Assembly: GCF_048128805.1 (NCBI RefSeq)
Contig: NC_136012.1
Location: 15,000,225-15,064,224, forward strand
Direction: 5' to 3'
DNA from: Centroberyx gerrardi
Taxonomy: Eukaryota > Chordata > Actinopteri > Beryciformes > Berycidae
Length of the DNA: 64,000 nt
A program made the position numbers and the translations under genes. Of the stretch, positions 25,758 to 60,660 are shown piece after piece. The notes beneath the pieces were generated by a model. That model was not told the DNA's origin and did no database searches. It worked only from the letters and a program-made list of their open reading frames with translations. Within the stretch, counting starts at the first letter, position 1; the number at the start of each line of letters is the position of its first letter.

Positions 25758-31844
<6,087 letters not shown>

Positions 31845-52722: not shown

Positions 52723-53458
52723 GACATACAGACAATTGGTTTGTCAGCAAGCACACTCACATTTTCTAAAAGTGTGTGTCACTACAAAACCATCTTTGGA
52801 AAATGCACATAATCTAGTTAACCATCACTCTACTGTCAGTATTTTCTCCAAGAATCTATCAGTGTTGCTTCATGACAGTCTGCCTGTTCAGCCAGTGCAC
52901 TGTCAGTGGGAAACAGCAAAGAGGTGAAGTGGTGAAGGAGACTCTTACAGGAATCATGTTTTTCATGATGTGAGTCAAAATATCGTCTAAACCTATAAAT
53001 GAAGCTGATACCTCTAAAGCGCTGTATCATGGAGACAGCTTAAAGTTTTCTCTATGAAGTGAGTGAGCAATAGATCTGAGAGTGTGATAGGTTCAGAATT
53101 AGAAGTTGTCTCAACGGAAATGCACGATTCTTATCAACACACAATCTCTCATGAGTTGACCAAAGATTTCCCCACACATGCTCTGCAGTCTCACTTGCCC
53201 ACATTCACCCACTCACATTTGCACGCACAACGCTCCCTCTCCCACAGATAAAAGGCGCACATTTATGTCTCCATCAGCTCACGGCCACAGAAACCCACTG
53301 CAAAGGTATGCTGGTTTTCCCATGTGATTCACTGTCACACACATGGGAAAATGAGTAAAATGTTTCCCTGATGAACAGAAAGGATCAACTTGTCCCTGGT
53401 CACCAGCTGTGGAGGTGGACAGCTGTACAGGTTGTGCATGTACACTGCCCATCAAAAG
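50582..53458. other. Intergenic region with simple repeats and two TATA-like first-exon candidates
   Basis: No protein gene is supported. A dispersed-repeat fragment (CCTTGAAAGTACTTGA) lies near 51460-51570. An (AT)n run is at 52603-52636 and a (CA)n run at 52688-52720. TATA-like boxes at 52446-52451 and near 53245 each precede a short segment with a good splice donor (52508 and about 53308). No downstream coding exon was found. Confidence 0.4.
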
Positions 53459-54062
53459 TTTACGACCCAAAGTCAATTGGTGACCACAGTCCAGTACTCA
53501 TTCACAATGTACCCATAAATCAGGTTCCTTCATATAAATATCTTGGTGTCCACATTGACAGTTCGCTCACATGGCATGTTCATGTTGAAAACCTTTGTTC
53601 TAGGCTACAACAGAGGATGTACTTTTTGAGAAGGCTTAGACTCTATGGTGTAAATAGTAAACTTATGTTCTTGTTTTATCAAATGATTTTAGAGAGTGTA
53701 ATTCGATATGACATACAAGTATGGTATGGTAACCTGTCAGCACAGTTAAAGTCTAAGCTTGCACGTCTCATCCAAACGGCCATGAAGATCATAGGGAAAA
53801 AAGAACATCACTATCTTCAGTCTTTATATGAAAAATCTGTGCTCAGGGAGGCACAGAAGATTCTGAATGACCCAACACACATCCTGAACCCAGAATTCAA
53901 GGTGTTGCCCTCAGGCAGACGGTTCAGGATGCCAAATTTTGTATGTATGATCTATGTACTTGTATGCATGTGCATTGTGATGTGTTGTGTGTTGCAGTGG
54001 CTTGGAGCCCAAGACAAGTTTCCCTGCGGGACAATAAAGTATATCTTATCTTATCTTATCTT
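53459..54062 (+). mobile_element. 5'-truncated non-LTR retrotransposon (reverse transcriptase C terminus)
   Basis: The open frame carries the end of a LINE polymerase ORF: SPVLIHNVPINQVPSYKYLG, LCSRLQQRMYFLRRLRLYG, QMILESVIRYDIQVWYGNLS, KLARLIQTAMKIIG and LPSGRRFRMPNF. It ends with a tandem ATCTT tail at 54040-54062. The order fits CR1/L2/Rex-type fish elements. The 5' part of the ORF is missing and the normal C-terminal residues after RRFRMP have decayed, so the copy is dead. Confidence 0.85.
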
Positions 54063-55458
54063 TTCCCCAGTGCAAAGATTCCGCTGTCTTGCACAGAAGA
54101 GAAGCAATGTTCCCCTCAATCCTCTTCACGCTGACACCTGCATACTCATCTGATTCCTCCTCTACTGATGGTGTCAAGACAAAGGCTGCACACCAACCTC
54201 TATGATGACAGCTGCTAAACCCCGCAGCTTCATCCCCACATCGCCTATGAGTCATGAACCTGCTGCTACACGATTAACTCAAACATATTAGTAGTAACAT
54301 TTCATGGAAATTCAGTTAGCAGATGATTTATCACATATTTTGGAAGTCGGGTGATAAGAAAGCTGCCGGCAACATTTCTCTGTTTTGATATGTTATAATA
54401 CTGCCTTCAGAGATTAGAGAGTATTCAGTCAGCAGTGCTTGTTTAACACTACAAAGGCCAATCTGCAGTCAACTGACAGCAGTTTTGAATGCTAGAAATG
54501 AAATATTACACCTTTCAAAATGTCTCTCCATGACTTTTCCTTGACCCACTTTCTGTACAACCCAGTGTGTTAGATTTTCAAAGCATCACACAGAAATAGT
54601 AGTTACAGTTATATTTACCGCCTTCTTCTCAGCTTGTTGGTCTTCTCTTAGACGCCCAAAATCTACTGGCCTTTGTAGTTAAAGTTGCCATTTCATGAAA
54701 TTATAATGGACATCACAGACTGTCAACAACTGAATTCCCTCTGTGTTTTCTATCCCTACTGTATAAGGTAGAACTTGCTTAGCCTAGTTTCCAATAATAC
54801 AATAAGGGCACAGTAGAAGAAAAAATAATACAAGTTAGAATATAGGGAACATCCGACAAGTTCAACAATAGAAAGTTTTTAGTGGAAATTTAGGAATGAA
54901 ATTATGAAAAATAGAACTACAACCCAATGGTTTTCTTCCATTTTTTTAAGTGTCCAGACATAAAAAGAACCAACAAAAAACACAAACCAAGCAACAAAAG
55001 ATATAAAAACAAGAAACACCAAAAATAAAATACAAATATACATATACATATATACAGACATATACCCGTACATATACATTCATTCATACATACATACATA
55101 CATACAAACACACATACATACATATATACATATACACACATACATACATATACACATATATATATATACATACACACACACACACATACATATAAACTAA
55201 CTTGGAGCTCCCTTCCCCCCTGCAACACTTCCAAGTGTTTCCGGTCCTTCACCTTCATAGTTCTTTCTCCTATTGGTCTCCACGACAACAGACTAACGGG
55301 GCAGCTGACCCTGCTGGCTTGAAACAGCTGTAAGAAATAAAATGAATATTGTGCTTTTTATATGAATAACACACTCTGTTCTTTGTTCTCAGAGTAGAGT
55401 GTCTTTTCTTCTCTACATACCATAATCAGTGTAATCAGTGCATGTATGCGTGTACGTG
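54063..55458. other. Intergenic, low-complexity (ACAT/TATA)n tract
   Basis: No gene is seen. A tract of ACATACAT and TATACATA units covers about 55030-55195. It produces Tyr/Met/Val/Cys-rich false frames on the minus strand. Confidence 0.6.
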
Positions 55459-57675: not shown

Positions 57676-59145
57676 CACATTAAAGGCCTACAAAAGGCCA
57701 GACATATGTACAGAAGGTGTCAAGGCATGTACCTAAATATAATACCTAATATCTTGTTGTTAGGCATCAGCTCTCCAGGGGCGAGCCAACAACAACCACT
57801 ATTAATTAAGCAACATTATATGTGTGGGGAAACCCCTTCCTCCTCCCCCTCTTTGACATATCCTTTGAAACGGCAGAAAATCACCATGTGAAAGTACCAG
57901 AGCCACGGGCATCTTTGATGACTCATCACTTTGATGGACAATCTTGTGTGTTAATATAGTGGTTGACAGTACCACTGAAACTATGATATCAGCCATAGTT
58001 GCCTATTATTAGGAGTCACTATGCTGAGATGTGAGTGAGAGAGACCAAAAAAGGAGAAGCAGGGTACATTGCATTAGTTTATTCATGGTTCCCGTTACTC
58101 TCTATGAACATGTCATGTCTTGTTTTCAATGCTTCCTCTGGTCAAAGAGAAACACTAAACGGCCCATTATACAACTGTAGTGATGGCAAACACTTCCTTC
58201 GATGCTGTGTATAGACTTTAAATTAGGTCAGATGTACTTGCAGCTGCACCATGATTGCATACGTGATAAGCAATGATCACACTTCAACGTATGCAGTGAG
58301 AGTTGACAGCGCTGAACTAATGGGAGCACCTACAGCAGGAAGGAGTGAACGGGACTGGGGGCTTGAGGTGTGAGAAACACGCAAGGTGACTTCATAAATA
58401 TAATGAGCTCATTGGCTTTTTTAGAATACCACTCACTCGTCAGCTGAGAACCACAATCTAACAACATAAAGGAAATTCTATTTGCCTAGTCATTTGTTAA
58501 GGTTTCATGGAAATTTGCATTGCTGAAAGTGTGTTGCAACTTGCTACTGTATATTCATGATGATTTGGTGCATCTGGACCTTGTGCGACCATGTACAAAG
58601 CATGTATGACATCTCATATTAGAAGAATGATTGGGGCCTCTGATGTTTGGTATTCATAGACACAATTCCTATATCTTGCATTTTCTTTTTACCTGGACAG
58701 GCAAAGCAAGGGAGGTTTCAAATGGAGGCATGCTGCTGTACACAAAGTGTTATCTCATCAAAATCATCTTCCTATAGAATGCAGTAAAACCAGATTTCAC
58801 TCACCACACATCAGATGTAAAGAAAAGAGGGCAATGTTTTTTTAAGCCCACATTGGTTTTGCTTCTTTGGGGGAAGATAGACAGTGGTGGCTTTGAAATT
58901 CTCTGCCACGATAAGCGATAAGACCACAGAGACAAAAGGCCTACTTTATACAAATGTCATCAACTTTGTTAATTGAGACACCCCTCTTTCTGATTCTCAT
59001 TTCCAAGTAGGCGTATGTTGATGACATCATGACTTCCTCTTTTTTAGGCCATAAAAAGAATGTGCAGATGCTAATCACATCACTACACACACTCAAGATT
59101 GCAAAGAGAAGCTGTAAGAAGGAGAGAGAAAGAATTTGCTCTAAT
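57676..59145 (+). promoter_or_regulatory. Upstream region of the candidate cytokine gene
   Basis: No gene is seen before 58900. A tandem GATA element GATAAGCGATAAG is at 58910-58922. An AP-1/ATF-like GATGACATCATGAC is at 59019-59032. A TATA-like GGCCATAAAAAG is at 59048-59059, about 90 bp before the ATG. This compact, TATA-driven layout is common for inducible cytokine genes. Factor binding is inferred from words only. Confidence 0.45.
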
Positions 59146-60080
59146 ATGATGAAGAACGTGTTTGTCCTTGTTGTCCTGCTGCATCTCTGCCAGGCTGAGG
59201 ATGATAACTTGAGGGGGGAGCTCATGGACGGCCTGAAGAAACTCAATCTAACGAACTTCACATTTGTAAGTATAGTGCATTAATATTGATTATCCCTCTT
59301 CATTTACACTAACACTTGAAACCCTGTGTTATGAACTGTATCATACTCTACTCTCTGGATGGCTCTTGTGGCTGTTCTCAGGACCTCCTGCTAGTCAAAC
59401 AGATATAATCTCCAGGAATGTAAATGTAATCATCTGCCTCTTGTAATAATCCTCCAGTGCATTAATAAATTAAATGTTCTGTTCCTATAGCCACCAAAAA
59501 TGAAAGCGCCATCAGAGCAAATGCGTATAAATGCAGTAAGTATTGCTTCTTTTAACCATTTGGACTTTGAATGGCCATGCTCCCATGTTTCTCCATCTCA
59601 TCTTGTTTTGTCCACTGCCCATTTGAGGCTCTTCTTGTTATGTTCTTATGATGATAGATTTATTCGTTTCAGTTGATAACAATGCGATGCAGTGCCTGAC
59701 CAGACCCTGTCATTTGTCCCATTGCAGTGTGACTGTAAAGGCGTCTTTGCTGAGGAGCTGAAGAAGTTTCTCAAATCTGTGACGCCAAAGAATCAAGAGG
59801 GCAACGATCTTCTCACAGAACTTCAGGCAAATGCTGAACGTCTGCCAACAGCTCAAGAGGTTAGTGATCAAAACTATGATTCAGTGTGTTTTTTCGACAG
59901 ATGTTGGACAGTATGAACAACGTTGTACCGGCTCTGGGTATTCAGACTAGACATAATCCTAAGTGTGCTGTGTTTCTCTTCCAGCTCAACATCACCTGCC
60001 CAATGGGAATGATATCTTCAAAGAGTCTTGTTAGGCGGTACATCTCATTCCTCAAGACACTAAACAACAAAGGCTGCTAG
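59146..60080 (+). CDS. Candidate secreted four-helix cytokine (IL-4/13-like), 130 aa
   Basis: Exons: 59146-59265, 59491-59535, 59728-59859, 59985-60080, all in phase 0 (120, 45, 132 and 96 bp). A signal peptide MMKNVFVLVVLLHLCQA is followed by four predicted amphipathic segments: around GELMDGLKKLNL, GVFAEELKKFLKSV, DLLTELQANAERL and SLVRRYISFLKTLNN. The mature part has four cysteines: CDC at the start of exon 3, ITC in exon 4, and the last residue. Potential N-glycosylation sites are NLT/NFT and NIT. A very short second exon with phase-0 introns is typical of IL-4, IL-13, IL-5, IL-3 and GM-CSF. The 3' UTR holds repeated ATTTA (60370-60437) and AATAAA at 60648. Family membership is inferred from architecture, not from sequence identity. 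Another class I cytokine is possible. Confidence 0.65.
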
Positions 60081-60437: not shown

Positions 60438-60660
60438 TTTTATTGTTGTTTTATTAGGATCCTGCCAAAGCTGCCAAATTAATGACAGCTAGTCTTCCTG
60501 GGGAAGACTCCTTATTTATGTATTTATCATCTCATGCAGATGATCTATCTAGTTGATTGGGTTGCATGTACTGGATGTTGTACCGAAGTAATATCCCCAA
60601 TTTGGAAGAGTTTATTTCAGTTCAGAAATATTGTGCTGCTGTCTTCAAATAAATCAACTA

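Follow-up and report, generated by a model that had tools for sequence, protein, structure and literature searches.

A small gene lying just upstream of DRD1 in the fish Centroberyx gerrardi raises the question of whether it encodes a cytokine and, if so, of which family. The gene occupies positions 59146..60080 of the window, the whole stretch of 64,000 nucleotides analysed here (C16:15000225-15064224, where C16 is NC_136012.1), in a genome of 779 Mb. A preliminary description of this DNA had proposed a fish Th2-type or related cytokine; the right group of families was thereby named, but the gene is neither the IL-4/13A nor the IL-4/13B of this genome.

Reviews of 2015, 2016 and 2018, in the portions available, present the beta-chain ligands of fish as doubtful, as confined to cyprinids among teleosts or as missing in zebrafish. 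The fish beta chain itself is known and its ligands are uncertain (PMC4929537), while Il-3, Il-5 and GM-CSF are listed as missing in zebrafish (PMC6306437). Genes designated ‘IL-5fam?’ are described from zebrafish, carp, goldfish and mahseer, the doubtful zebrafish and carp genes being linked with KIF3A, and, according to the accessible part of that source, its authors found no IL-5-family candidate in non-cyprinid teleosts (PMC4690019). No later report of a fish ligand was found in the open-licence literature, covered in part at the level of titles and abstracts, and one may exist.

We propose that the product is a short-chain, four-helix cytokine that is secreted, and that the gene represents the DRD1 side of locus B in the duplicated type-2 cytokine locus of teleosts. 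Its likeliest affiliation, across a wide divergence, is with the IL-3/IL-5/GM-CSF (beta-chain) family, and by position it would correspond to the cyprinid ‘IL-5fam?’ genes; to this reading we give slightly less than an even chance. It builds on the intact gene model, the AU-rich 3′UTR, the position and the lack of detectable similarity to IL-4/13A or IL-4/13B, each of which is directly observed.

Gene model and predicted protein

Direct reading of the window yields four exons joined in phase 0, of 120, 45, 132 and 96 bp (stop included in the last), every one a multiple of three, with GT-AG at all intron borders. Together they encode a 130-aa protein with a hydrophobic leader. The features of the gene, all on the plus strand, are as follows.

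58910..58922, +: tandem GATAAG-C-GATAAG, a possible GATA-3 type site, ~230 bp 5′ of the start codon
59050..59056, +: TATA-like CATAAAA, 96 bp 5′ of the start codon (direct reading)
59146..59265, +: exon 1, signal peptide (residues 1 to ~17, cleavage site by eye) and predicted helix A (20-32)
59491..59535, +: exon 2 (45 bp), A-B loop
59728..59859, +: exon 3 (132 bp), C56, C58 and predicted helices B (58-72) and C (78-91)
59985..60080, +: exon 4 with stop, C104, predicted helix D (111-127) and C130
60081..60660, +: 3′UTR with 14 ATTTA motifs and AATAAA at 60648

An in-frame stop at 59008 precedes the start codon. The N-terminus is hydrophobic, the signal peptide being assigned from hydropathy alone. 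Re-reading confirmed the gene model first described, with its four phase-0 exons, 45 bp exon 2, signal peptide and 130 residues. Besides Cys15, within the signal peptide, the protein has cysteines at 56, 58, 104 and 130, and its N-glycosylation sequons are N34 and N101; four cysteines and glycosylation sites had been reported earlier.

The candidate has the gene architecture of class I short-chain cytokines, namely four coding exons, phase-0 introns and a very short exon 2. It resembles teleost IL-4/13A and IL-4/13B in its four phase-0 exons, signal peptide, length (~130-150 aa) and type-2 locus neighbourhood. Human IL-3, IL-5 and GM-CSF likewise have a short exon 2 and phase-0 introns, and the length of exon 3 is near that of IL-5 and GM-CSF. 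Exons 2 and 3 encode 15 and 44 aa in the candidate, compared with 19/35 in the IL-4/13A and 17/36 in the IL-4/13B of the same genome, 14/42 in human GM-CSF and 11/43 in human IL-5; the lengths in the candidate are close to those of the two human genes and unlike those of the fish’s own IL-4/13 genes, which speaks for the beta-chain family.

A single-sequence structure model, of poor quality, predicts four helices, distributed over the exons as in cytokines. Predicted helix A contains Glu25. A glutamate in helix A contacts the beta chain in the IL-3/IL-5/GM-CSF family and occurs in IL-4 and IL-13 too.

The rarity of this architecture was gauged by searching for a signal peptide with four phase-0 exons behind it, the second of them 30-66 bp long. 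In the window, the scan returned 16 models, all from the start codons at 59146 and 59149 of the candidate, whereas only 1 of 200 dinucleotide-preserving shuffles of the window yielded any model. In the genuine flanking sequence, 100 kb to either side, four models arose, at one spurious place on the minus strand of the right flank. The scan thus shows the pattern to be rare, yet the control is not independent of the gene, because its cut-offs were relaxed after a stricter first run had missed it, and the control was therefore not blind.

Untranslated and upstream signals

The 580 bases past the stop codon hold the 14 ATTTA motifs, with TTATTTAWW matched four times. The preliminary description makes no mention of this AU-rich 3′UTR, of AATAAA, of the TATA-like box or of the tandem GATAAG. 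Across 1818 windows of 580 bases (both strands, 264 kb) the mean is 1.23 ATTTA, and the 3′UTR itself is the sole window with at least 12; a count of 14 was reached by none of 500 mononucleotide shuffles. AU-rich 3′UTRs are typical of short-lived cytokine mRNAs.

These features bear on the reading of a helical secreted protein, decayed or lineage-specific, that is no working cytokine, a reading we regard as improbable. It would fit the searches of Pfam and of PDB sequences with the candidate protein, which gave no useful match, and the protein search of the genome (seven candidates scored), which found no paralogue elsewhere; that sequence searches could miss this gene had been anticipated. However, a full frame, three clean introns, a signal peptide, an AU-rich 3′UTR and a poly(A) signal are unlikely to have persisted jointly by chance.

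The tandem GATAAG at 58910 is the sole such tandem within 264 kb. A GATA-3 motif is described, in the part of the source available, for the promoters of teleost IL-4/13A and as lacking from those of IL-4/13B (PMC4690019). The site thus also fits the alternative of a third, relocated IL-4/13 paralogue, an A or B copy stranded beside DRD1 by rearrangement and signalling through IL-4R-alpha and STAT6. On all the evidence, including that given below, we consider such an origin unlikely.

Genomic neighbourhood

The genes around the candidate are listed here, with coordinates in window numbering extended beyond its right end.

65108-66247 (C16:15065341): DRD1, 5 kb downstream of the candidate, 72% to human DRD1
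81.6-81.9 kb: MSX2, right of the candidate, 77% match
~101-107 kb: CPEB4, right of the candidate, by eye
left of the candidate: GPRIN (Pfam GRIN_C)
left of the candidate: a cadherin gene (Pfam Cadherin), which we take to be CDHR2
left of the candidate: a protein kinase gene (Pfam; NEK by eye)
left of the candidate: SNCB and FAF2, by eye only

The 5q35-type block said to lie nearby is thus present, with DRD1 starting 5 kb downstream, MSX2 beyond it and CPEB4 further on. Pieces of RAD50, KIF3A and POU gave no match at E ≤0.5 within 100 kb on either side of the window.

The type-2 loci of the same genome

In teleosts, IL-4/13A adjoins RAD50 and IL-4/13B adjoins KIF3A, as the available portion of the source has it (PMC5440397). 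Both neighbourhoods are present in this genome, their IL-4/13 models being known from the genome sequence alone.

C11:10352643-10351209, −: IL-4/13A, 145 aa, four phase-0 exons, identified by position just past the RAD50 3′ end
C11:10386213 down to 10354521: RAD50
C11:10406052: DRD1 copy, 20 kb from RAD50
C16:12955211-12957958: KIF3A motor exons, 2.1 Mb from the candidate
C16:12966616-12965654, −: IL-4/13B T1, 135 aa, four phase-0 exons, identified by position beside KIF3A
C16:12979476-12978511, −: IL-4/13B T2, 136 aa, four phase-0 exons, identified by position beside KIF3A

DRD1 is accordingly present in two copies, that on C11 and that beside the candidate at C16:15065341; the same genome search found more distant D1-like receptors on C5, C20, C15 and C3. 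The tandem T1 and T2 are identical in 124 of 137 aligned columns, stop counted. Chance matches lie at 12962.8-12963.6 and 12968.6-12969.4 kb, and because they recur in pairs ~5.8 kb apart, the duplication seems to take in part of the KIF3A tail region as well as IL-4/13B.

Since RAD50 and a DRD1 lie on C11, and KIF3A on the chromosome of the candidate, we assign the A locus to C11 and place the B locus on C16. The candidate adjoins neither diagnostic neighbour: RAD50 lies on C11 with a four-exon gene of its own, and KIF3A has its own two four-exon genes, 2.1 Mb from the candidate. The candidate is neither of the two known teleost IL-4/13 types: the genome’s own copies sit beside RAD50 and KIF3A and score z −0.3 and 0.7 against it. 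With the loci so assigned, the gene is a candidate third type, on the DRD1 side of the B locus. That it is a third cytokine of the type-2 locus, probably of the IL-3/IL-5/GM-CSF family, is put forward tentatively, as a prospect falling just short of even.

Published gene orders cut both ways, as far as the available portions of these sources go. DRD1, MSX2 and CPEB4 are at locus B with KIF3A in zebrafish, whereas in sea bass and pufferfish they are at locus A (PMC5440397), and the turbot order runs LARS, RBM27, POU4F3, IL-4/13A, RAD50, DRD1 (PMC11649633). Beside the locus-B DRD1, the candidate may lie on the IL-5 side of the type-2 locus; against this count the sea bass and pufferfish arrangement, the 2.1 Mb to KIF3A and the presence of RAD50 on the other chromosome. 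Spotted gar IL-5famA, by comparison, is found where IL-5 would be expected in a type-2 locus that includes RAD50 (PMC4690019), unlike the candidate, beside a locus-B DRD1 that lacks RAD50 nearby. The cyprinid ‘IL-5fam?’ genes, compared by position only, resemble the candidate in that those of zebrafish and carp are KIF3A-linked, while the candidate shares its chromosome with KIF3A and adjoins DRD1, a flanking gene of the zebrafish B locus.

For the relocated IL-4/13 paralogue, the flanking of the zebrafish IL-4/13B locus by DRD1 is favourable, yet both expected IL-4/13 positions are already occupied in this genome. Exon 3 of the candidate, at 132 bp, also differs from the 105 bp of IL-4/13A and the 108 bp of IL-4/13B. 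In the part of the source available, exon 3 of IL-4/13A is the shorter in salmonids and the longer in sea bass and stickleback (PMC5440397); this genome agrees with the salmonid order, which hints weakly at lineage.

A locus-A gene of IL-5 type would be expected in the 20-kb interval from RAD50 to DRD1 (C11:10386213-10406052), where the genome search with the candidate protein listed nothing.

Sequence relationships

Relationships were scored by exon-anchored alignment as z values against shuffles of the candidate; the shuffles leave uncorrected the amphipathic periodicity common to helical cytokines, and the fish IL-5 family is represented by a single comparator, spotted gar IL-5famA, with exon borders and cleavage site guessed. 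Over exons 3 and 4, which carry the similarity, the gar protein was the highest-scoring sequence compared, with exon-anchored z of 4.95 (0/2000), 4.86 (0/1000) and 4.68 (0/1000), and unanchored local z of 4.66, 4.38 (3/2000) and 4.62. The human sequences gave exon-anchored values of 2.19 (GM-CSF), 1.95 (IL-13), 1.66 (IL-4), 0.54 (IL-2) and −0.64 (IL-5). Among 11 cytokines in the unanchored local test, gar IL-5famA and human IL-21 (z 4.05, 9/2000) came top and the other nine reached at most 1.7; free alignment with eight cytokines gave 4.07 for IL-21 and 3.85 for gar IL-5famA. Similarity to human IL-3, IL-5 and GM-CSF hardly exceeded random expectation (local z 0.2, 1.7 and 0.0, respectively), a difference from those proteins despite the shared gene structure.

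Two observations in these scores count against the beta-chain family: human IL-21 scores almost as high as gar IL-5famA, and human IL-5, GM-CSF and IL-3 are not outstanding. The first raises the reading of another short-chain cytokine, IL-21-like or otherwise of gamma-c type, now beside DRD1, for which the IL-21 score speaks and which we hold to be quite improbable. Human IL-2 (−0.55) and IL-15 (0.58) lack similarity in the same local test, and the home of IL-2 and IL-21, human 4q27, is unlike the 5q35-type block found here.

The relocated IL-4/13 paralogue fares unevenly. The candidate shows no similarity to the genome’s own IL-4/13A (exon-anchored z −0.31) or to IL-4/13B T1 and T2 (0.66 and 0.66). 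IL-4/13 genes diverge fast, however, and the own A and B T1 themselves reach just 2.2 in sum and 0.2 in the local test. Their exon 3 alone gives 3.9, a signal that is absent from the candidate, whose exon 3 scores −0.6 against IL-4/13A and 0.9 against IL-4/13B. Exon 4 of the candidate does resemble exon 4 of human IL-4 (z 3.0, 15/2000 shuffles).

Controls set the reach of the method. In its favour, human IL-4 and IL-13 score 3.83 against each other, own IL-4/13B T1 gives a local z of 3.9 with human IL-4, and own IL-4/13A and IL-4/13B T1 sum to 1.18 and 0.27 against gar IL-5famA. To its detriment, own IL-4/13A gives a local z of 3.4 with human IL-5, and against gar IL-5famA human IL-13 (2.9-3.0) and GM-CSF (2.5-2.7) outscore human IL-5 (just 0.6). 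Since exon 3 scores equally against the gar protein in own IL-4/13A (3.6) and the candidate (3.56), exon 4 alone sets the two apart (0.1 and 3.8, respectively). The alignment test is thus a poor separator of families and does not recover membership reliably, because human IL-13 and GM-CSF outscore human IL-5 and the exon 3 of IL-4/13A equals that of the candidate. Within this resolution, the sequence points to a probable class I cytokine without a close tie to IL-4/13 and leaves the IL-5 family and IL-21 unseparated, while position favours the IL-5 family.

Cysteine pattern

With assumed cleavage sites, the mature cysteines fall at 39, 41, 87 and 113 in the candidate and at 36, 77, 87 and 113 in gar IL-5famA. 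Both proteins have a cysteine near the start of helix B, one in the C-D loop and one after helix D, the last two equally spaced; the candidate differs in lacking the gar cysteine at 77, in its additional CxC and in being shorter. The 87-113 spacing is not diagnostic, because turbot IL-4/13A has the same spacing in its C104-C130 pair (C8-C9), as the available portion of that report gives it (PMC11649633), a point of agreement with the IL-4/13 paralogue. By analogy with GM-CSF, mature C41-C87 is likely the family-type bond, and C39-C113 likely replaces the gar 77-113 pair. The disulfides of GM-CSF serve as the template for these assignments.

Proposed action of an IL-3/IL-5/GM-CSF-type cytokine

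As a member of the IL-3/IL-5/GM-CSF family, the gene would be transcribed transiently in activated type-2 lymphocytes under the control of GATA-3, and its AU-rich element would confer fast turnover on the mRNA. Judged from these motifs, an inducible, GATA-controlled, AU-rich mRNA and a secreted glycoprotein are the most likely products. The protein may be a glycosylated monomer of ~113 mature residues with two disulfides, in which C58-C104 would link helix B to the C-D loop and C56-C130 would tie the end of helix D. It would presumably bind a private alpha chain together with the common beta chain (CD131), and the JAK2-STAT5 output could expand or activate eosinophil, granulocyte, macrophage or mast-cell lineages.

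That a non-cyprinid teleost should carry an intact cytokine of the beta-chain (IL-3/IL-5/GM-CSF) family by the locus-B DRD1, in addition to a full IL-4/13A and IL-4/13B set, we view as rather doubtful. If true, the long-known common beta chain would gain a teleost ligand, and the implication would be that the teleost type-2 locus split after genome duplication, one copy retaining an IL-5-type gene and the other RAD50 together with IL-4/13A. A position ~5 kb before the locus-B DRD1 is offered as the place to seek the ligand in other teleosts, and a mature protein of this length could be produced and assayed on cells that bear the receptor.

Other features of the window

At 30382-30796, opposite-strand ORFs have a common 17-residue peptide and seem to form a long inverted repeat, perhaps the remnant of a DNA transposon. 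An open frame at 53359-54153 resembles, by eye, the tail of a non-LTR retrotransposon reverse transcriptase and matches Pfam ALKBH8_N at E 7.1e-5.
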